NCBI RefSeq assembly: GCF_001179925.1
Contig: NZ_CVSF01000067.1
Span: 1 to 64,000 of the forward strand
Source of the DNA: Candidatus Pelagibacter communis
GTDB lineage: Bacteria > Pseudomonadota > Alphaproteobacteria > Pelagibacterales > Pelagibacteraceae
DNA length: 64,000 nucleotides
Direction: 5' to 3'
Shown: piece after piece, positions 39,179 to 49,716 of the stretch
Position numbering within the stretch: the stretch's first letter is position 1
How the letters are laid out: each line of letters starts with the position of its first letter
Program-made: the position numbers and the translations under genes
Notes under the pieces: model-generated
The model's database searches: none
What the model saw: the letters and a program-made list of their open reading frames with translations, nothing else
Told to the model about the DNA's origin: nothing

Positions 39179-40006
39179 TTAGAACTTACCTTTTTTATCA
39201 GAACCTTTATAAAAAATTTCTTGAAGATTATTATTTTCTTTTTTTTTTAATTTAATATCATTCTCATCTAATAGTTTTTTTGGTCGTCCAATTTTTTCAT
39301 GATAATTAAATTCATCTACTCCTCTTGCTAGTTGGACACTGTTTTTACCTAGAACTTGTTTGACATTTGTTCCTATATAACTTTGAATTACAAAACCTAT
39401 TCTTCGATCATTACTTATATTAAGTTCCGAACCATGAACAATAGTGGGATGATGCAGGGACATTTGTCCAGCCTCTAAAATTAAAGGAGTAGTTTCAAGC
39501 TTTGGTACATTTTTAACTGTTTGACCTCTAGTTAACAAGTTACCTTCATTAAATTTTTCTTCATGTTCCTTTAAATTATCTTTATGTGAGCCTGACCACA
39601 TTCTCATACAGCCATTTTTTTCATTTGAATCTGTTATAGCAACCCAAGCTGTAACCCAATTATGTGGTTCTAAACCAATATATTTTGCATCTTGATGATA
39701 GCTAACAAATCCTTTCTCATTGGGATTTTTAATAAATAAAGTAGTCCCACAAACAAGAATATTTTCGCCAATTAAACTTTGGACAGCATCTAAAATTTTT
39801 GAATTATGTGTAACTTCGTCTAATAAAGGTGATATCAAATGAGCATTATATCTCCCAGAATTTTCTAATTCTTCAGGCATATTGTTTTCTATCAATTCAA
39901 TTTCATTTCTTATTTCTTTAGCTTTATCTTTTGAAAAAATATTTATTGGAGATATGAATCCTTCATCCTCGTACTGTTTGAGTTGATTTGAAGAAAGATA
40001 AGACAT
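39179..40006 (-). CDS. phytanoyl-CoA dioxygenase (PhyH) family protein
   Basis: Non-haem Fe(II)/2-oxoglutarate oxygenase fold of 275 residues. The iron ligands are visible as the HxD in SYHQDAKYIG and the distal histidine in HPTIVHGSELN. A conserved arginine in NDRRIGFVIQ would bind 2-oxoglutarate. Family members hydroxylate varied small molecules, and the substrate cannot be inferred here. It is divergent from the MOSC gene and starts one base after the GST gene ends on the opposite strand. Confidence 0.88.
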   Translation of the reverse strand: MSYLSSNQLKQYEDEGFISPINIFSKDKAKEIRNEIELIENNMPEELENSGRYNAHLISPLLDEVTHNSKILDAVQSLIGENILVCGTTLFIKNPNEKGFVSYHQDAKYIGLEPHNWVTAWVAITDSNEKNGCMRMWSGSHKDNLKEHEEKFNEGNLLTRGQTVKNVPKLETTPLILEAGQMSLHHPTIVHGSELNISNDRRIGFVIQSYIGTNVKQVLGKNSVQLARGVDEFNYHEKIGRPKKLLDENDIKLKKKENNNLQEIFYKGSDKKGKF

Positions 40007-40022
40007 ATTATTAAAAGATTAT

Positions 40023-40811
40023 ATGAGCATATCTATTTCTTCAATAAATTATTGCCCAGTCAAATCTATTTCATTTCAAACTATTAAAAGCTGTGAAATT
40101 AGAAATAACATTGGAATTGTTGGAGATAGAATTTTTGCATTTTCTAAAGGTTTAGATTTTAATCAAGCGCAGCTATTTGAAAAAAATCTTGATGAGAGAA
40201 GAGGTAAATGGAATAAGATTTTAACTCTTAAAAATTCACCTTGTTTAAACAAATATAATTTTATACTTAATAATAATAAATTGACACTAACTCAAAGAGA
40301 CAATGAAATTATAACAATAAATAGTGATGAAATAAGTGAATACGAGCTACTTTCAAATAAAATTTTAGAATTAGAAAAATCTCTTCAAAAACCATTATTT
40401 TTGTTGAAAAACAAAGACACTCCTTTTTTTGATACATCAATATCAAACAAAACTGTCTTAACTCATTCGATATCTTTTCTAAATAATAAAAGTATTGAAG
40501 ATTTTGAAAAAAAAACCAATCATAGAATAGAACCTCAAAGATTTAGGGGTAATATTCATGTCGACGGTATGGAAGCATGGGAAGAAAGAAACTGGATTGG
40601 AAAAATTGTTAAAATAAACAATATTTCATTTAAGGTTGAAAAAAATATACCAAGGTGTGTGGCAATTAATTTAAAACCTAATAGTGATGATAATAGTTTA
40701 AATTTACTTCAATCTTTAAAAAAAAATTATAATCATTTTGATATGGGACTTTATCTAACCGCACTCGATAATGGACAAGTAAATATTAGAGATAATGTTT
40801 CTATAAAATAA
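40023..40811 (+). CDS. MOSC domain protein
   Basis: A 262-residue protein with an N-terminal beta-barrel segment (SSINYCPVKSISFQ) and a C-terminal MOSC domain. It contains FRGNIHVDGMEAWEERNWIG and the conserved cysteine region NIPRCVAINLKP. MOSC proteins relate to the molybdenum-cofactor sulfurase C-terminus and to the YcbX/YiiM type that reduce N-hydroxylated compounds. The redox partner might be the ferredoxin system about 1.5 kb upstream, but that is speculation. Confidence 0.88.
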   Translation: MSISISSINYCPVKSISFQTIKSCEIRNNIGIVGDRIFAFSKGLDFNQAQLFEKNLDERRGKWNKILTLKNSPCLNKYNFILNNNKLTLTQRDNEIITINSDEISEYELLSNKILELEKSLQKPLFLLKNKDTPFFDTSISNKTVLTHSISFLNNKSIEDFEKKTNHRIEPQRFRGNIHVDGMEAWEERNWIGKIVKINNISFKVEKNIPRCVAINLKPNSDDNSLNLLQSLKKNYNHFDMGLYLTALDNGQVNIRDNVSIK

Positions 40812-40822
40812 TTTTTATCAAC

Positions 40823-40849
40823 TTGAGATTGTAATTTTTCAACTATACT
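40823..40849 (+). promoter_or_regulatory. candidate promoter of ehuB
   Basis: A TTGAGA -35-like element (40823-40828) and a TATACT -10 element (40844-40849) are separated by 15 bases, a little short. They lie 57 bases before the ehuB ATG. A GAGGAG ribosome-binding site at 40894-40899 follows. Confidence 0.4.
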
Positions 40850-40905
40850 TTTTAAATCTTTTTTGATTTACTTATTTCTTAATTAAAAATAATGAGGAGA
40901 TAAAT

Positions 40906-41751
40906 ATGAGTAAAATATTTAAGTCATTAACAGTTTTACTTGTGCTTCTTTTTTCAATTTCTACAGTAAGTGCGAAAACTCTTACTGAAAGACTTGCGGA
41001 TGGACACAAATTAAGACTAGGTTTTGGAACAGCAGTGCCATGGGCTTACGCTGGAGATGGTGGTGAGGCCTTAGGATTTGTTAATATGATAGCATTAACA
41101 GTTCTAGAAGAGATGGGTATCACTGAACATGAAACAAAAGTTTTTGAATGGTCAGGATTAATCCCAGGATTAAATGCAGACCGTGCAGATATGATTACTG
41201 GCGGAATGTATATTTTAAAAAGTAGATGTGCAAACATGGACTTTTCAGATCCTATAGGAGTATTTGGTGATGCAATGCTAGTACCAAAAGGAAATCCAAA
41301 AAACATTAACAATTATGCAGATGTTATTAAAACTGGAGCTAAATTAGTTACAGGAACTGGATTTAATACTGTAGAGGCAGCTAAAAAATATGGTGTGCCA
41401 GACAGTCAAATGCTTTTAGTTGAAGGTGAAGTTGGTATTTTAGCAGCAATGAAAGCTGGAAGAGCAGATGTTGCAGTACAAACATTCTTTGGTGCAAAAG
41501 AGCATGAAAAGAAAACTAATGGTAAGTTTGAAGTAACTGATCCAAAATTAATGCCAAAAGAAACTTTAAACGTTGTAGGAATTGGATTTAGAAAAACTGA
41601 TGACAAGTTTAGAGAGGCATTTAATGCAGCTCTAGCTAAAGTTATGGCTAACCCGGCAACTATGTTGAAAAGAGCTGGAGAGTATGGGTATGATAAAGCT
41701 CAACTTCCTCCACCAGACATGACTACCGAGTGGGCTTGCTCAACTAAATAA
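40906..41751 (+). CDS. ehuB: periplasmic substrate-binding protein, EhuB-like (ectoine/polar amino acid type)
   Basis: Family 3 solute-binding protein of 281 residues that captures its ligand in the periplasm for the permease below. A cleavable signal peptide covers about residues 1-23 (FSISTVSA). The segments WSGLIPGLNADRADMITGGM, DFSDPIGVFGDAMLVPKGNP and AGRADVAVQT align by eye with EhuB of the ectoine/hydroxyectoine system. The ligand could also be another polar amino acid or osmolyte. A strong GAGGAG site and richer codon use suggest high expression. A hairpin separates it from the permease genes. Confidence 0.85.
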   Translation: MSKIFKSLTVLLVLLFSISTVSAKTLTERLADGHKLRLGFGTAVPWAYAGDGGEALGFVNMIALTVLEEMGITEHETKVFEWSGLIPGLNADRADMITGGMYILKSRCANMDFSDPIGVFGDAMLVPKGNPKNINNYADVIKTGAKLVTGTGFNTVEAAKKYGVPDSQMLLVEGEVGILAAMKAGRADVAVQTFFGAKEHEKKTNGKFEVTDPKLMPKETLNVVGIGFRKTDDKFREAFNAALAKVMANPATMLKRAGEYGYDKAQLPPPDMTTEWACSTK

Positions 41752-41773
41752 TTTAATAAGAAGTTATTAAAAT

Positions 41774-41805
41774 AAACCAGGCAACTTAATTGTTGCCTGG
41801 TTTTT
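41774..41805 (+). terminator. hairpin terminator/attenuator between ehuB and ehuC
   Basis: A 12-pair stem with no mismatch (41774-41785 with 41792-41803), a six-base TTAATT loop and a T run ending at 41805. Since ehuC begins 20 bases later on the same strand with no clear promoter, partial read-through would give more binding protein than permease. Confidence 0.88.
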
Positions 41806-41824
41806 GAAATTTAAAGGTATTTGA

Positions 41825-42496
41825 TTGACTTATTTTGAATTTTTAAATGAACATGGAATAACTCTTTTACTTGGGACAGTTACAACTGTGAAGGTGCTTG
41901 TTTGTTCAATGATTCTTTATGTAATTATTTCTATGATATTTGGCCTAATGAGGCTTTCCAAAAATCCGGTAATACAAGGCACAGCTACTGTATATATAGA
42001 ATTTTTTAGAGGGACGTCTCTTTTAGTGCAATTATTTTGGGCGTACTATGTTTTACCTTTTTTTGGAATATCTCTAGAAGCTTTTACTGCAGGTGTTGTA
42101 GCTTTGGGTTTGAATTTTGGAGCTTATGGTGCAGAAATAGTTAGAGCTGGAATATTAGCAGTACCTAAAGGGCAATGGGAGGCAGCTCATTCATTAAATT
42201 TTACTCCAGCGAAAAGAATTAAAAGAATTATTATTCCTCAAATATTCCCAATAATATTACCACCTGCTGCAAATTTAACTGTAGAGTTATTAAAAGCCAC
42301 TGCATTGGTAGCATTAGTTACTGTGGTTGATCTTACTTTTGAAGCAAAACAAATTAACTCTATAACATGGTTATCTGCACAATGTTTTGGAACAGCATTA
42401 CTTATTTATTACATAATGGCTAGATTTGCATTGGTCCCATTTTTAAGATGGTTGGAAGTTTTAGCAGCTAGAAAAGTTGGAAAGGAGAAAATTTAA
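41825..42496 (+). CDS. ehuC: ABC transporter permease, EhuC-like
   Basis: Inner-membrane permease of the histidine/glutamine/arginine type (223 residues, about five helices). The family motifs EFFRGTSLLVQLFWAYY and GAYGAEIVRAGILAVPKGQWEAA (coupling-helix EAA region) are present. The start is TTG at 41825. It pairs with the next permease, and both are served by the EhuA ATPase. It follows the attenuator after ehuB. Confidence 0.9.
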   Translation: MTYFEFLNEHGITLLLGTVTTVKVLVCSMILYVIISMIFGLMRLSKNPVIQGTATVYIEFFRGTSLLVQLFWAYYVLPFFGISLEAFTAGVVALGLNFGAYGAEIVRAGILAVPKGQWEAAHSLNFTPAKRIKRIIIPQIFPIILPPAANLTVELLKATALVALVTVVDLTFEAKQINSITWLSAQCFGTALLIYYIMARFALVPFLRWLEVLAARKVGKEKI

Positions 42497-42499
42497 ATC

Positions 42500-43177
42500 A
42501 TGGAAATGGGTTGGAGATGGGATTTTACTTATGAAATATTGCCTCAAATGGCAATTGCAACACTTAATACTATTCTTGCAGCTGGTGTAGGTTATGCAAT
42601 CGCCTTGATTGTTGGATTATTTTTTTTATTAGCACAAAGAACACCTTCAAAAATATTTAATTGGGTTAATAGAGAAATAGTTGAATTTATAAGATCGACT
42701 CCATTATTAATTCAATTATTTTTTGTATATTTTGTATTACCGCAGTTCGGTATTACTTTATCTGCCTGGGTATGTGGAATGATTACTATTGGTCTTCACT
42801 TTGGAACATATATGTCAGAGGTATATCGAGGAGCACTTGAAGGAGTTTCAAAGACTCAATGGGAAGCTTGTAGGGCTTTAAATTTTTCTACAATTTATAC
42901 GTATAGAAGGATAGTCCTTCCTCAAGCATTTCCTATAGCCATACCTGGAATGGGAAATTATTTGGTTGGAATATTTAAAGATACACCTCTTTTATCAACA
43001 ATTGGTGTAGCGGAATTATTCCATGCAGCCACAGCAGTTGGTGGTTATAATTATAGATATTTAGAACCTTATACTTTAGTAGGTATTATATTTTTAACGT
43101 TATCGATACCTGCAGCTATGTGGGTTAGAAAACTTGAAAGAGATGTTAATATATCTCAAGGAAAAATTAAGAAATAG
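42500..43177 (+). CDS. ehuD: ABC transporter permease, EhuD-like
   Basis: Second permease of the same His/Glu/Gln family (225 residues, about five helices). It shows EFIRSTPLLIQLFFVYF and an EAA-type loop in GALEGVSKTQWEACRALNF. It lies three bases after ehuC and three before ehuA, so the three genes form one unit. With EhuC it forms the heterodimeric channel. Confidence 0.9.
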   Translation: MEMGWRWDFTYEILPQMAIATLNTILAAGVGYAIALIVGLFFLLAQRTPSKIFNWVNREIVEFIRSTPLLIQLFFVYFVLPQFGITLSAWVCGMITIGLHFGTYMSEVYRGALEGVSKTQWEACRALNFSTIYTYRRIVLPQAFPIAIPGMGNYLVGIFKDTPLLSTIGVAELFHAATAVGGYNYRYLEPYTLVGIIFLTLSIPAAMWVRKLERDVNISQGKIKK

Positions 43178-43180
43178 GTT

Positions 43181-43972
43181 ATGGCAAAAAATAATACAGA
43201 TGAAATTATAGTTAAGTTTGATGATGTAACCAAACAATACGGTGATCTAGTTGTATTAGATAAACTTAATCTTGAAATTAAAAAAAACGAAATGGTTTCA
43301 ATTATAGGCCCATCTGGTTCAGGAAAAACAACAGTGTTAAGAGTTTTAATGACCTTGGAAAAGATAAATGGTGGGGTAATCCATTTAGACGGAGAACCTT
43401 TAACACACATGAATTCAAATGGAAACATAGTTGAGGCAAATGAAAAATACTTAAGAGAGAGAAGGTCAAAAATAGGTATGGTGTTTCAACAATTTAATTT
43501 GTTTCCACATATGACAGCTTTACAAAACTGCATTGAAGCTCCAGTTGAGGTATTGGGCATGAAGAAAGAAGAGGCAAAAGAAAGAGCTTTAGAATTATTA
43601 GAACTTGTTGGTTTGACAGATAAGAAAGATCAACACCCAAGTAGATTGTCAGGTGGTCAACAGCAAAGAGTAGCCATTGCAAGAGCACTTGCTATGAGAC
43701 CCAAGGTAATGCTTTTAGACGAAATTACCTCAGCGTTGGATCCAGAAGTTGTTGGAGAAGTTTTGAATGTTATTAGGTCTTTAAATAAAGAACATAATTT
43801 AACTATGATAATGGTTACGCACCAAATGGGATTTGCTAGAGAGATTTCCGATAGAGTTTGCTTTTTTAATGAAGGAAAAATTTTTGAGCAGGGACCCCCC
43901 GAAGAATTATTTGGAAATCCTCAAAATGAAAGGACAAAACAATTTCTACATGCTGTTCTTGATGCAAATTAA
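43181..43972 (+). CDS. ehuA: ABC transporter ATP-binding protein, EhuA-like
   Basis: Cytoplasmic ATPase of the polar amino acid/ectoine importer (263 residues). Walker A GPSGSGKT is at residues 43-50. The Q-loop lies in MVFQQFNLFPHMTALQN, the signature is LSGGQQQRVAIARALA, Walker B is VMLLDEITSALDPE, and the H-loop is in MVTHQMGFA. The phrase FNLFPHMTALQN is typical of this transporter class. It is the last gene of ehuBCDA and ends two bases from the 3' end of the opposing microprotein ORF. Confidence 0.95.
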   Translation: MAKNNTDEIIVKFDDVTKQYGDLVVLDKLNLEIKKNEMVSIIGPSGSGKTTVLRVLMTLEKINGGVIHLDGEPLTHMNSNGNIVEANEKYLRERRSKIGMVFQQFNLFPHMTALQNCIEAPVEVLGMKKEEAKERALELLELVGLTDKKDQHPSRLSGGQQQRVAIARALAMRPKVMLLDEITSALDPEVVGEVLNVIRSLNKEHNLTMIMVTHQMGFAREISDRVCFFNEGKIFEQGPPEELFGNPQNERTKQFLHAVLDAN

Positions 43973-43974
43973 TT

Positions 43975-44073
43975 CTATGGATTAATTAATCTGAGAAATG
44001 AACTTAAAATTCCATAACCTGATAGTTCAATAGCAAGAACTATAATGATTATAAGAAGAATTTGTTTATTCAT
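43975..44073 (-). CDS. putative 32-residue single-span membrane microprotein
   Basis: This short frame starts with MNKQILLIIIIVLAIELSGY and ends LRLINP. It is nearly one hydrophobic helix with a glutamate inside. Its ATG overlaps the stop of the upstream 42-residue ORF in an ATGA junction, which suggests translational coupling. It has no recognised family. It follows dksA and the 42-residue ORF on the same strand and nearly meets ehuA. Confidence 0.5.
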   Translation of the reverse strand: MNKQILLIIIIVLAIELSGYGILSSFLRLINP

Positions 44074-44198
44074 TTAACAAACACAAATATTAATAACAAT
44101 ATCCAAAAAAAAGCATAATAATAATAAATATATTTTTTTGTGAAATTATATGTAATTGGATTTCCAACTCGAGTATTTTTTTTTCTTTTTTTAGTCAT
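44070..44198 (-). CDS. putative 42-residue basic membrane microprotein
   Basis: This small frame begins MTKKRKKNTRVGNPITYNF and ends in a hydrophobic segment AFFWILLLIFVFVK, giving a strongly basic cytoplasmic head and one membrane helix. Its ATG lies within the last codons of dksA (ATGACTAA overlap of eight bases). Its TGA overlaps the start of the 32-residue ORF. A longer version read from 44258 exists but would lie wholly over dksA, so the short start is preferred. Function is unknown. Confidence 0.55.
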   Translation of the reverse strand: MTKKRKKNTRVGNPITYNFTKKYIYYYYAFFWILLLIFVFVK

Positions 44199-44691
44199 CG
44201 GCATGAACTTTCTCATTTTTTTCATGTTTTTCTTGAGCAGCAATTGTATATTTAGCAATAGGTCTTGCCATTAATCTTTTCAAACCTATTGGTTCAGCAG
44301 TATCCAGACAATATCCATAAGTATCGTCCTTGATTCTCATAAGAGCTTTATCAATTTCAGAAATTAATTTGATTTGTCTATTAATTGCTTTCATTTCTAC
44401 ATTTTTGTCAGTATATGAGCTAGCTTGGTCAACAATATCTGCTGAGATACTGTTATCATCCATACTTCCATTATATAAAGCTTCATTGTTAGCCTTGACC
44501 AATTCTTTTCTCCATTCTTGTAATTTTATTCTAAAATATATTTTATGTTTTTCTGACATATATTTTTCAGTATCTTTGGGAATATAAGTTTTAGAAATTT
44601 TTAATGGTCCTTTTTTGATTTCTTTAGATTTAGTTGATTTTTTTGGTTTTGTTTTAACAACTTTTTTTTTTACTTTTGATGTTTTAGGCAT
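44191..44691 (-). CDS. dksA: DksA/TraR-family transcription regulator
   Basis: RNA polymerase secondary-channel protein that works with ppGpp in the stringent response. It has a basic Lys-rich N-terminal tail, then a coiled-coil region. The C-terminal motif YGYCLDTAEPIGLKRLMARP carries one cysteine where the classical zinc finger has four, as is common in alphaproteobacterial DksA. The ATG at 44691 (166 residues, MPKTSKV) is preferred. The longer frame begins at a TTG that falls inside a good promoter. Two microprotein ORFs follow, coupled by overlaps. Confidence 0.9.
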   Translation of the reverse strand: MPKTSKVKKKVVKTKPKKSTKSKEIKKGPLKISKTYIPKDTEKYMSEKHKIYFRIKLQEWRKELVKANNEALYNGSMDDNSISADIVDQASSYTDKNVEMKAINRQIKLISEIDKALMRIKDDTYGYCLDTAEPIGLKRLMARPIAKYTIAAQEKHEKNEKVHADD

Positions 44692-44713
44692 GGTAATAAA
44701 ATAACAGCGGCGG

Positions 44714-44741
44714 AGTATATTCAGCAAAATTATGGTGTCAA
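44714..44741 (-). promoter_or_regulatory. sigma70-type promoter of dksA
   Basis: On the minus strand, consensus TTGACA (44741-44736) is followed after 16 bases by TATACT (44719-44714). Transcription should begin near 44707, giving a 5' leader of about 15 bases before the ATG at 44691. Confidence 0.78.
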
Positions 44742-44770
44742 GTAAGGTGAATTAATGTAAATGTTAAATT

Positions 44771-46159
44771 ATGGATGGTTTTAAAAGAAATATTAATAAT
44801 ATTTTTTTAATTTTTATCTTTTCTCATTTAATTATTTGGACATCTGTTCCATCACTCACAAATAATAACTTACCCTTGGATTTAATTGAGGCTTTAGCGT
44901 GGGGGAGTAATCTTGATTGGGGTTTTAATAAACATCCACCGGGAAGTGCCTTCTTTACAGAAATGTTTTATCGAATATTTGGTCCACAAGATTGGGCTTA
45001 TTATTTATTAAGCCAGATATTTGTAATAATAGCATTTTTTTATGTGTTTAAATTATCAAATGAAATTTTTAAAAATTCATTATTAAGTTTGATGTCGGTT
45101 CTTTTGTTAGAGTCAATTTATTTTTATAATTTCACAACTCCTGAATTTAACGTGAATGTTTGTCAATTACCATTTTGGGCAATGGTAGTTTATTATTCTT
45201 GGAAAATTTATAATAAAAATCATATTAGCGTTTTAGATTGTATTTTTTTGGGACTTTTTGGTGCAATTGGATTTTTATCAAAGTATTTATTTTTATATTT
45301 ATTACTATCTGTTTTTTTCTTATTCATTTATTTAATTTTTAAAAAGATTAAAAAATTTGACTTTAAGTATCTAATAATATTTGAAATTTTTATTGTAATT
45401 TTAATCCCACATTTGATTTGGTTGAATAATAATGATTATGTGACCATATCATATGGATTAAAAAGAACTGGACTTGAACAGTCCACCTTTATTGATCACA
45501 TTAAATATCCTTTATTATTTATTATAAAACAAATCGGTTTATTGATTCCTTTTTTTGTTTTAGTTTTTTTACTTGTTAAAAAAATAAGATTTAAATTTAA
45601 TATTAAAGATAAAAAATTAATTTTTCTTACTTTTGTAAATTTCATGCCCATCATTTTAATGTTAATTACTTCGGTGATAACTGGTTCTAGAATTAGAACT
45701 ATGTGGATGACACCATTTTATTTATTTTTTGGTTTATTTGCTGTTTATGTTTTTCAATCAAAAATTAACTTAAAGAAAATTAAAAATTTTTTATATGGAT
45801 TTATTTTTTTATTTTTTTTATCACCAGCATTATATGCATATATTTCAATTAAAGAGACTAATAAGAGAACTGACTATTTTGGAAAAGAAATATCAGAGCT
45901 TGTTGAAAGAAGATGGAATAAGAATTTTTCAAATGAAATTATGTATGTCGTAGGAGATGAATGGTATGCTGGAAATTTATCATATCACTTACCTTCAAGG
46001 CCTAAATGGTTTTTAGATCTTAAAGATAATATAAATAAGTTAAATCCCAAAGGAGGAATTATTTATGTAGGTAATTCAGAAATATTAAAAGAGATATGTC
46101 TAGGCGATTTTGGTAAAATAGATAGACTAGGTTATTGCATGATTGGTTCAAAATATTAA
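44771..46159 (+). CDS. membrane glycosyltransferase family 39 (ArnT/PMT-like)
   Basis: Polytopic protein of 462 residues with about ten hydrophobic segments. The early loop WGSNLDWGFNKHPPG resembles the acidic, lipid-sugar binding loop of ArnT- and PMT-type enzymes, which transfer sugars from polyprenyl phosphate carriers on the periplasmic side. The next gene is a dolichol-phosphate-mannose-synthase-like GT2 that could make such a donor. Acceptor and sugar are unknown. Confidence 0.85.
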   Translation: MDGFKRNINNIFLIFIFSHLIIWTSVPSLTNNNLPLDLIEALAWGSNLDWGFNKHPPGSAFFTEMFYRIFGPQDWAYYLLSQIFVIIAFFYVFKLSNEIFKNSLLSLMSVLLLESIYFYNFTTPEFNVNVCQLPFWAMVVYYSWKIYNKNHISVLDCIFLGLFGAIGFLSKYLFLYLLLSVFFLFIYLIFKKIKKFDFKYLIIFEIFIVILIPHLIWLNNNDYVTISYGLKRTGLEQSTFIDHIKYPLLFIIKQIGLLIPFFVLVFLLVKKIRFKFNIKDKKLIFLTFVNFMPIILMLITSVITGSRIRTMWMTPFYLFFGLFAVYVFQSKINLKKIKNFLYGFIFLFFLSPALYAYISIKETNKRTDYFGKEISELVERRWNKNFSNEIMYVVGDEWYAGNLSYHLPSRPKWFLDLKDNINKLNPKGGIIYVGNSEILKEICLGDFGKIDRLGYCMIGSKY

Positions 46160-46162
46160 GTT

Positions 46163-47032
46163 ATGATAATTAAGATATTAATTCCTATTTATAATGACTG
46201 GCAATCGGTATTAAAACTTCTTGATGAAATAAATTATAATTTATCGAATTTAGATCATGAAATCTCAATCATTATTATTAATGATGCCTCAAATCATGAT
46301 CGAAATAATGAAAATAATGATTATGCAAATATTCATTCGATAAAGATTTTGAATATGAAGATTAATCAAGGCCATGCAAGATGTATTGCAACAGGACTAA
46401 AATATGTTTTTGAAAAAGAGGATTTTGATTATGTTATTCCTATGGATGGAGATGGAGAGGACAGACCTGAGGAAATAAAAGAATTTATTAAACAAATTAA
46501 AAACTGTGATAATAATCCAATTGTTGGAGAAAGAGTTAAAAGGTCAGAAAATTTTATTTTTAAACTTTGTTACCAATTTCATAAATTACTAACATTAACT
46601 TTCACAGGTAAATCAATTAAATTTGGTAATTTTACTTGTTTACCAAAATCAACTGTAGAAAAGTTAGTCAATGATAAAGCAACCTGGAATAGTTTTTCAG
46701 GTTCTTTAAGAAAAATTGAAAATAATTTGAAAACTATTCCATCTATAAGAGGAACTAGATATTTTGGCCCATCAAAAATGAGCTTCTTGAATTTATTGAA
46801 ACACTCTTTATCAATTATGAGTGTATTTAGAACAGTTTTTTTAATTCGTTCATCAATATTTATTGTTCTATATATTTTATTTATAAAAAGTAACGCCTCA
46901 ATTATTACCGCAATACCATTGATACTGTTATTAATAGCAGTTTATTTTATTTCAAATTTAGCATTAAGAGAAAATATGGAAGAATTTGATAAATCACTAT
47001 CAAACATTACTGATGTTGAAAAAATAAAATGA
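46163..47032 (+). CDS. polyprenyl-phosphate glycosyltransferase, family 2 (DPM1-like)
   Basis: A 289-residue protein with a GT-A domain (ILIPIYNDWQSVLKLLDEI at the start; PMDGDGEDRPEEI holding the DxD motif) and two C-terminal membrane helices. This layout fits synthases that load a sugar onto a polyprenyl phosphate. It is three bases after the GT39-type gene, so the pair likely forms a donor-maker and a periplasmic transferase. It overlaps ppc by four bases. Confidence 0.87.
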   Translation: MIIKILIPIYNDWQSVLKLLDEINYNLSNLDHEISIIIINDASNHDRNNENNDYANIHSIKILNMKINQGHARCIATGLKYVFEKEDFDYVIPMDGDGEDRPEEIKEFIKQIKNCDNNPIVGERVKRSENFIFKLCYQFHKLLTLTFTGKSIKFGNFTCLPKSTVEKLVNDKATWNSFSGSLRKIENNLKTIPSIRGTRYFGPSKMSFLNLLKHSLSIMSVFRTVFLIRSSIFIVLYILFIKSNASIITAIPLILLLIAVYFISNLALRENMEEFDKSLSNITDVEKIK

Positions 47033-49716
47033 AAAAGAGAGATCTTTATTATGAGAGAATCCCAACAAGATTCCTTAGAGAAAATGTTCAATATTTGGGA
47101 AATATTTATGGAAAAGTAATCAAACAGCAAGAAGGAAAAAAGTTTTTTCAATTAGTTGAAAAAGTAAGGAAATTATCAAAAGCAAATAAAATTAAATCAT
47201 ATCATGTTCAAACAAACAAAAAAGTTATTAGATCTATAAAAAATCTGAGCCCAAAAAAGATATTTAAATTAGCTAGAGCATTTTCTCATTTCATGAATTT
47301 TATTAATTTAGCTGAAATAATTGATACCTCTAGAAGTTTAAATGAATATGAAAATAGTAAAAAAAAGATTTCTAATAATAATTTATTTATAGAAGAAATT
47401 TTTGAAGATTTATTTAATAATAAAGATATTTCTAAAAATAAGATTTACAATACGGCAAAAAATCTAAGAATAGGAATAGTTTTAACTGCACATCCAACAG
47501 AAGTAAAAAGAAGAACTTTAATTCAAAAGTATCACAATATTATTGAAATTCTTGAACAAAGAGATCTTTTGAAAATTTATCCATCAAAACTAAAAATTCT
47601 TGATAAAAAACTTTTTGATGAGCTTACTATAATCTGGAACACTGATGATTTAAAAAGATTTAAACCTTCACCGTTTGATGAAGCTAGATGGGGACTTGCA
47701 ATAATAGAAGATAGTTTATGGGACACTGTACCTAAAGTTTATCGAAGGTTAAATTCAATATTTGTTCATAATATGAATAAAGGGTTACCTAAAAATTTTA
47801 ATCCAATTGAATTTGGTTCTTGGATGGGAGGGGATCGAGACGGTAATCCAAATGTTACAGCTAAAGTAACAAGAGAAGTAATATTACTGTCAAGATGGGA
47901 AGCTGCAAAACTATATGAAAAGGCTTTAACAAAAATAATTAGATCTTATTCAATGGAAAAATGTTCCAAAAAAATTCAAAAACAAGTTGGACAATCTTTT
48001 GAACCTTATAGAGTTTTTTTGAGACCTTTAAGAGATAAGATGAGAGTAACACACAGATCAATTGAACAGCATCTAGTTAACAAAAAACCGTTAAATCAAA
48101 AAAAATTACTTAGTTCTAGAGAGGAAATATTAAAACCTTTAAGGATTGTGAGAGAGTCATTAGAGCAAAATAATAATGAAAATATTGCTAGTGGGGAACT
48201 ATTAGATTTGATGAGAAGAGCTAAGTGTTTTGGTATTAATTTAGCTAGGCTTGATATCAGACAAGAGTCATCTAGGCACAGTCAATTAATTAATGAATTT
48301 TACAGGAAAAAATATAATAAAGACTATTTAAATTTAGATGAAAAAGACAAAGTAGAATTTCTAAAAAATCAAATTACATCAAAAAAAAATAAACTTAAAA
48401 ATTTTAAATTTATAAATAAAGAAAATAAAGAAGTTTGGTCGACTTTTAATACACTTGCAAAGGAACCACCAGAGTGTTTGGGTGCATATGTTATTTCAAT
48501 GACTACTTCTGCATCCGATATCTTGTCAGTATCTTTTTTGCAAAAAGAAGCGAATATTAGAAATAAATTGAGAGTAGTTCCATTATTTGAAACTTTAGAA
48601 GATTTAATAAATGCAAAAAAGATTATGAGTACCTTATTTTCTCAAAGATGGTATCGTAAAATGATAAATAATAACCAAGAGGTTATGATTGGGTATTCAG
48701 ACTCAAGTAAAGATGCTGGTAAAATTTGTGCTAATTGGCATCAATATAAAGCTCAAGAAGAAATTGTAAAACTTAGTAAAAGATTCAAAATTAATGTATC
48801 ATTTTTTCATGGGCGAGGTGGATCTGCAGGAAGAGGAGGTGGGCCAATACAAGCTACATTGCGATCACAACCACCTCAATCAGTTAATGGAAAAATTAGA
48901 ATAACAGACCAAGGTGAAGTAATACAACAGAAATATGGTTATGAACCATTAGCAAAATATAATTTATGTAGTTACATCGGATCAGTAACCGAAGCTATAT
49001 TAAATCCACCGCCCCCACCAAAAAAAAATTGGAGATCATTAATAGAAAAAATGTCCGAAATATCAAAAAATTCATACAGGAAAAATATTAATCAAAATTC
49101 AGATTTTATAAGATATTTCAAAACAGTAACGCCACATAAAGCTCTTGGAAAATTATTTATTGGCTCTAGACCATCTAAAAGAAAAAATGTTGATAATATT
49201 AAGAGCCTAAGAGCGATACCATGGGTTTTTGCATGGACACAAATTAGGCTTATGCTGCCAGCATGGCTAGGAAGTGCTGAGGCTTTGAGATATTCTTATA
49301 TTAAAGAATTTAGAAAAACTCTCTATGAAATGGAAAAAAACTGGCCTTTCTTTAATTCAATGTTGGATATTTTAGATATGGTTATTTCAAAAGCAGACCC
49401 AGAAATCTCAAAAATTTATGAGGAATATTTAGCAGATGATAATTTAAAACGTGTTGGAAAAAAATTGAGATTTCAATTCGATGTTATCAAAAAACTAAAT
49501 AGAAAAATTACTCCTATTGAAATAACGAAATTAAGAAAAGAATTTAGAAAATCCGTTATCGTGAGAAGTATTTACTCTGAGGTTTTAAATATAATTCAAC
49601 CTATAGTGATTGATAGATTAAAAAAAAATGGTAATTACAAAGATAAAAAGTATTTAGAAGATGCTTTATTAACTTCCATTGCGGGAATTTCTGCAGCTAT
49701 GAAAAATACAGGATAA
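47029..49716 (+). CDS. ppc: phosphoenolpyruvate carboxylase
   Basis: Anaplerotic enzyme that carboxylates PEP to oxaloacetate with bicarbonate. The catalytic histidine is in TAHPTEVKRRT near residue 155. The glycine-rich FHGRGGSAGRGGGP lies near 595 and binds the substrates. The length of 895 residues is normal. It may support TCA intermediates when light drives ATP supply through proteorhodopsin; that link is inference. The start overlaps the GT2 gene, and its stop shares one base with the start of the next secreted protein. Confidence 0.96.
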   Translation: MKKRDLYYERIPTRFLRENVQYLGNIYGKVIKQQEGKKFFQLVEKVRKLSKANKIKSYHVQTNKKVIRSIKNLSPKKIFKLARAFSHFMNFINLAEIIDTSRSLNEYENSKKKISNNNLFIEEIFEDLFNNKDISKNKIYNTAKNLRIGIVLTAHPTEVKRRTLIQKYHNIIEILEQRDLLKIYPSKLKILDKKLFDELTIIWNTDDLKRFKPSPFDEARWGLAIIEDSLWDTVPKVYRRLNSIFVHNMNKGLPKNFNPIEFGSWMGGDRDGNPNVTAKVTREVILLSRWEAAKLYEKALTKIIRSYSMEKCSKKIQKQVGQSFEPYRVFLRPLRDKMRVTHRSIEQHLVNKKPLNQKKLLSSREEILKPLRIVRESLEQNNNENIASGELLDLMRRAKCFGINLARLDIRQESSRHSQLINEFYRKKYNKDYLNLDEKDKVEFLKNQITSKKNKLKNFKFINKENKEVWSTFNTLAKEPPECLGAYVISMTTSASDILSVSFLQKEANIRNKLRVVPLFETLEDLINAKKIMSTLFSQRWYRKMINNNQEVMIGYSDSSKDAGKICANWHQYKAQEEIVKLSKRFKINVSFFHGRGGSAGRGGGPIQATLRSQPPQSVNGKIRITDQGEVIQQKYGYEPLAKYNLCSYIGSVTEAILNPPPPPKKNWRSLIEKMSEISKNSYRKNINQNSDFIRYFKTVTPHKALGKLFIGSRPSKRKNVDNIKSLRAIPWVFAWTQIRLMLPAWLGSAEALRYSYIKEFRKTLYEMEKNWPFFNSMLDILDMVISKADPEISKIYEEYLADDNLKRVGKKLRFQFDVIKKLNRKITPIEITKLRKEFRKSVIVRSIYSEVLNIIQPIVIDRLKKNGNYKDKKYLEDALLTSIAGISAAMKNTG

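Follow-up and report, generated by a model that had tools for sequence, protein, structure and literature searches.

CydX, KdpF and AcrZ are small accessory subunits, each binding a defined complex, and DPM2 and DPM3 are small partners of dolichol-phosphate-mannose synthase. The canonical DksA protein carries four zinc-binding cysteines. Few cells on Earth are as numerous as those of SAR11, which are also heavily streamlined. For HIMB5, an intergenic survey reports SAR11 sORFs, at least three besides uORFs, in unannotated sequence (PMC6429828). Here, we analyzed a stretch of 64,000 nucleotides (hereafter the window) from the genome of a member of the Pelagibacteraceae (SAR11), in which dksA is followed by two very short ORFs.

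On its minus strand, the window carries dksA (44194-44691; 166 sense codons, with the stop codon TAA at 44191-44193), ORF1 (44070-44198 including the stop; 42 aa, MTKKRKKNTRVGNPITYNFTKKYIYYYYAFFWILLLIFVFVK) and ORF2 (43975-44073 including the stop; 32 aa, MNKQILLIIIIVLAIELSGYGILSSFLRLINP). The start of ORF1 overlaps the stop of dksA by 8 nt (ATGACTAA) and that of ORF2 overlaps the stop of ORF1 by 4 nt (ATGA), in agreement with the first-pass annotation of this DNA. Two bases separate the end of ORF2 from the stop of a convergent gene (43181-43972), which we read from its sequence as encoding an ABC-transporter ATPase. Divergently oriented from dksA, on the plus strand, are found genes encoding a PMT_2 (ArnT-like) glycosyltransferase of 462 aa (44771-46159; Pfam PMT_2, E 2.4e-26) and a GT2 (ArnC/DPM1-like) glycosyltransferase of 289 aa (46163-47032; Pfam Glycos_transf_2, E 1e-13). 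The segment from GST to dksA (39179-43972) is a variable block: by our reading it contains PhyH-like and MOSC-like genes and an amino-acid-type ABC transporter set, the same block is carried by loci L210-L212, and elsewhere dksA and GST are convergent neighbours.

Each ORF contains one hydrophobic stretch, with best 19-residue Kyte-Doolittle means of 2.05 (ORF1) and 2.64 (ORF2), bearing out the single helix apiece that had been proposed. In ORF1, a basic N-terminus (+8 in the N-terminal part) precedes an aromatic-rich hydrophobic helix, while the helix of ORF2 carries a conserved I-E-x-S-G-x-G. By length (below ~50 aa) and hydropathy, both products are predicted to be membrane proteins with a single transmembrane helix. 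A light-harvesting alpha/beta pair was considered and dropped, as the position preceding G21 is occupied by H, Y, N, F or M and no histidine is conserved. Searches of Pfam, NCBIfam, PHROGs and PDB sequences returned no convincing relative of ORF1 or ORF2, in line with the earlier remark that annotation usually misses genes this short. When 18 and 12 alignment members were scanned against Pfam, only weak, uninformative matches resulted (YobH, E 0.02 at best; Renin_r, E 0.008 at best), sequences of solved structures in the PDB yielded nothing meaningful for either ORF, and in the open-licence literature we found no publication on either microprotein, nor a structure, proteomics or phenotype.

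Conservation of both frames was evaluated in 80 named dksA loci (records named Pelagibacteraceae, Pelagibacter or Pelagibacterales, with up to 95% identity over DksA), a set leaning to close kin, as the best DksA relatives were kept. Both ORFs are intact at the dksA tail in 73 of these loci, so that the proposal of two real genes survives the comparison with relatives. In two further loci a contig end cuts after the ORF1 start (L020, L074), in two the pair lies about half a kilobase farther on (L059, L080), and in three it is missing (L004, L012, L073), with no credible remnant in these three (best domain E 0.41). The codon-level check that had been suggested likewise favours coding function: averaged across the window and the 73 loci, pN/pS is about 0.25 for both ORFs (0.254 for ORF1, 0.247 for ORF2) and 0.130 for dksA, and among close pairs the values are 0.314, 0.118 and 0.073, respectively. 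The 8-nt dksA/ORF1 overlap is present in 67 of the 73 loci and the ATGA overlap in 52. At the protein level, the ORF1 motif F-x-[KR]-K-x-I-x-x-Y-Y-x-x-x-W is kept in 12/12 selected sequences and the ORF2 residues I15, E16, S18, G19, G21 and R28 in 18/18, R28 being replaced by K in some other sequences (e.g., L003 and L138). As judged from these sequence comparisons, ORF1 and ORF2 are genuine protein-coding genes under purifying selection.

A sigma-70-type promoter, TTGACA-N16-TATACT (11/12 consensus), precedes dksA on the minus strand (44714-44741), confirming the element noticed at first pass and placing it just beyond the interval then assigned to the locus. The exact string is found at this place in 80/80 named loci and at no second place in the 612,620 bp that they cover, and it occurs once in 1.01 Mb of the window's genome; with both boxes and the 16-nt spacing invariant in these loci, and a spacer sequence that is nearly fixed, the promoter is unusually rigid. 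Between 43700 and 45000, promoter-like sites are not enriched as a class (11 vs 8.0 ± 2.6 in shuffles), only the dksA promoter standing out, and no terminator-like sites were found in this interval. Elsewhere, the promoter is present in L202-L204 (three second-genus loci holding dksA), L130-L135, L208-L212, L236, L238 and L241, and its exact form is missing from L123-L129, L136, L230, L233-L235, L237, L239 and L240. Because it is kept exactly in 10 of the 11 loci scored without ORF2 (all but L230), conservation identifies the promoter as dksA's own and not one made for the microproteins, whose transcription in the window probably starts there. A C-rich stretch (CCGCCGC in the window) follows the −10 box, within about 10 nt downstream of the promoter; we take such a C-rich discriminator to be of the sort associated with ppGpp/DksA control, and autoregulation of dksA is possible.

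The DksA protein itself matches Pfam DksA_N (E 2.7e-13) and zf-dskA_traR (E 3.4e-8), both above the gathering score, and reaches 104.1 bits against NCBIfam TIGR02420, below the cut-off of 115.5. At the four cysteine places it has C, T, T and A, and one or two of the four cysteines are found in all 124 DksA proteins examined (the window and 123 loci). Genomes with a DksA match at E ≤ 1e-15 have a single one. Lacking the four-cysteine zinc site, the Pelagibacter protein is like the zinc-free DksA2 of Pseudomonas (PMC9213440) and is classed here as a zinc-free DksA; SAR11 may run its DksA without zinc.

Of 101 genus genomes, 54 gave a match to ORF1 and 67 to ORF2 in single-sequence queries (E ≤ 0.01); small-alignment queries detected ORF2 in 149 and ORF1 in 123 of 247 order genomes, 12 of these 123 being weak (E 7e-5 and above) and omitted from later counts. 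In a family draw, ORF2 was found in 100/140 near-complete genomes and in 2/8 genera; in a class draw its only occurrence among 190 genomes was in the window's own. In 148 of the 149 order genomes ORF2 yields a single match; G319 has a second, weak one, as has G236 in the family draw. In the second genus, ORF2 occurs in 18 genomes and ORF1 appears as partial matches only, in three genomes (E 0.002-0.004). The absence of ORF2 from 40/140 near-complete family genomes argues against an indispensable subunit.

The genomic position of ORF2 varies considerably. Of the 149 order genomes, 77 have it immediately after dksA and 35 after PMT_2; the other 37 comprise 8 genomes in which it is found across the divergent dksA at PMT_2 distance, 18 of the second genus and 11 others. 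Those 8 were assigned by geometry, PMT_2 not being among the rows listed for them; G037 was confirmed. Further sites, whose genes are named from our own reading of the sequences, are behind carB with a MOSC-domain gene, behind carB, behind Mrp, in the vicinity of a thioesterase gene, next to GST (behind PhyH or a different gene), behind the 243-aa gene that comes after dksA, and beside a tRNA-like end. In the second genus, ORF2 is seen beside an apparent tRNA end (L202, G203) and behind an Mrp-like ATPase gene (L205, G294). ORF1, in turn, occurs without adjacent ORF2 before a speB-like gene (L137, L142, L218, L219), behind a short-chain-dehydrogenase-like gene (L215, L217, L220, L221) and elsewhere (L141). 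At the speB-like sites the ORF1 homologue overlaps the start of the ureohydrolase gene, and an aldehyde-dehydrogenase-like gene comes next. No single partner gene recurs at all the sites read. Linkage to dksA is not constant, and on positional evidence neither ORF1 nor ORF2 is tied to it.

For the history of the dksA-tail position, a tree of DksA and PMT_2 from 122 of 127 chosen loci was constructed by a quick method (LG+G4); it is unrooted and has several long branches. In this tree, all 75 dksA-tail rows fall inside one starred group of 96 rows, and the state requires at least 8 changes vs 34.6 on average with shuffled labels. Sixteen PMT_2-GT2 rows lie outside the 96-row group, and all four states together amount to 17 changes. 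Given this confinement to one group with few changes, the dksA tail appears to be an ancient location, passed on mostly by descent and later lost or left several times. dksA is intact in the 11 loci scored without ORF2 (L222-L232); the best domain in a six-frame scan of these loci for a remnant had E 0.039 and was not counted.

Pairing of the two genes was assessed in 149 genus genomes with a listed dksA row, which are not the same set as the 149 order genomes holding ORF2. Both genes are present in 106, ORF2 only in 25, ORF1 only in 5 and neither in 13 (Fisher p 1e-5, shared descent being ignored), and ORF2 directly follows ORF1 in 85 of the 106. When genomes with the adjacent pair are excluded, the association is not significant (21 both, 25 ORF2 only, 5 ORF1 only, 13 neither; Fisher p 0.26). 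In nine genomes the adjacent pair does not lie directly behind dksA; in two of these (G062, G292) it is still within 1 kb of dksA on the same strand. The off-dksA pairs that were read are located in the carB region (L206, L207, L213), at PhyH/GST (L210-L212), at GST (L208), and behind the 243-aa gene next after dksA (L209). It is thus adjacency, and not unlinked co-occurrence, that supports ORF1 and ORF2 as a functional pair.

Taken together, we favour, at a probability of roughly 55%, a reading in which ORF1 and ORF2 encode conserved inner-membrane microproteins of Pelagibacteraceae, each with a single helix, which in this clade form the tail of the dksA operon and act as a helix pair accessory to a larger membrane complex. 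The dksA promoter would drive one transcript carrying dksA, ORF1 and, at its tail, ORF2, and ribosomes would pass from dksA onto ORF1 and then onto ORF2 by stop-start coupling. Both products would insert as single inner-membrane helices, ORF1 presumably N-in/C-out, given its +8 basic N-terminus and the positive-inside rule. The helices may pack via the small-residue face S18-G21-S25 of ORF2, leaving E16 available for a polar contact, to form a small hetero-oligomeric ORF1-ORF2 pair. Such a pair would most likely assist or stabilise some larger membrane complex as accessory subunits, as CydX, KdpF and AcrZ do. dksA would supply a conserved promoter and a place, the microproteins not being components of the DksA mechanism. 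Against this reading count the occurrence of ORF2 without a credible ORF1 in the second genus and the lack of a partner complex among the sites read.

More tentatively, and at less than even odds, the two genes could constitute a wandering cassette of ~225 bp, kept in single copy, that has repeatedly settled behind unrelated housekeeping genes in Pelagibacter and borrows their promoters by stop-start overlap, its products forming an obligatory helix pair for one constant membrane complex. If so, that constant complex would be served in a bacterium that ranks among Earth's most abundant.

Among the alternatives, the one with the most concrete gene neighbourhood assigns ORF2, and perhaps ORF1, to the PMT_2/GT2 lipid-linked sugar pathway as a small subunit similar to DPM2/DPM3, the same enzymes being served across the divergent promoter when it sits at the dksA tail. 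In 14 of 17 ORF2-centred loci (L123-L136, L138-L140), ORF2 is located directly behind PMT_2, whereas L139 has it at the dksA tail, L138 in convergent orientation to a GST gene and L140 next to a transporter-like gene. GT2 follows it directly in 13 of the 14 (overlap of 1-4 nt in 7, gap of 2-4 nt in 6), L136 differing downstream. By position, 35 of the 149 ORF2 genomes share this linkage, or 43 with the 8 assigned by geometry, and in the window the PMT_2 and GT2 genes lie next to dksA in divergent orientation. Of the 131 ORF2-bearing genus genomes (among the 149 with a listed dksA row), 130 have PMT_2, but so do 18/18 in which ORF2 was not found, indicating that the enzymes do not need ORF2 and that finding PMT_2 says nothing about a link. 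Moreover, in 14 of the 18 second-genus genomes (those with both genes listed on one contig) ORF2 lies ~8-16 kb from PMT_2; of the other four, two have the genes on different contigs and two have no listed PMT_2 row. Elsewhere ORF2 stands beside other genes altogether. Failing the test of co-occurrence despite its neighbourhood, this explanation appears unlikely to us.

Less probable still is the idea put forward in the first-pass annotation, that the microproteins report the state of the membrane to the stringent response, through or together with DksA. It draws on the shared strand, the overlapping frames and the confinement of the dksA-tail rows to one clade, a position long kept. A specific link of this kind is, however, not supported: barely half of the ORF2 genomes (77/149) have ORF2 directly behind dksA, the adjacent pair is attached to other genes as well, and dksA persists in the loci scored without ORF2, nearly all of which retain the exact promoter. 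The accompanying suggestion that the microproteins are made together with DksA fares better within the dksA-tail clade, where a shared dksA transcript and translational coupling are very probable in view of the two conserved overlaps; for that clade, the link to DksA is at best a statement about co-expression.

That the two genes encode small hydrophobic toxins, holins or two-peptide bacteriocins seems very improbable: the products are short and single-helix, one is strongly basic and the genes are adjacent, but in most cases they lie on the same strand as an ordinary cellular gene and overlap it, the best PHROG match (E 0.0067, for an ORF1 homologue) is to a family of unknown function, and the 13 and 341 pattern matches of the two families in viral contigs included none that passed tblastn, so that neither ORF has a confirmed viral or toxin relative in these collections. 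Chance open frames, short ORFs being common in this AT-rich genome (52 of at least 25 aa overlap 41000-48000), are refuted by the 73/80 intact loci and the pN/pS values, along with the conserved overlaps and the fact that both proteins stay conserved where their genes occupy unrelated sites.

With ORF1 and ORF2, two new families are added to a known kind of protein, the microproteins; their operon homes are unusually varied, and both families are missing from the curated family libraries searched. Since SAR11 genomes are streamlined, two tiny genes maintained under selection in several homes are probably useful to the cell. The mixed sites and absences provide natural comparisons for finding the partner complex; among genomes in one or a few contigs, G103, G113, G115 and G123 carry the pair, and in G012, G081, G105 and G111 ORF2 was not found. 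They also call for caution when function is derived from operon neighbours, as dksA looks like a landlord of these genes and not a partner.

Like CydX, KdpF and AcrZ, ORF1 and ORF2 fall in the range of ~30-50 aa with a single transmembrane helix, and belong to a kind of gene often unannotated or annotated late; they differ in that the former bind a defined complex, whereas ORF1 and ORF2 match nothing convincingly in Pfam, NCBIfam or PDB sequences and have neighbours that vary greatly between species. The resemblance to DPM2 and DPM3 lies in the position of ORF2 homologues between PMT_2 and GT2 genes in one set of species, but ORF2 is much shorter and PMT_2 is retained where ORF2 was not found. 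Within SAR11 itself, the sORFs of HIMB5 offer a further parallel, being like ORF1 and ORF2 short conserved peptide genes in unannotated sequence (PMC6429828).
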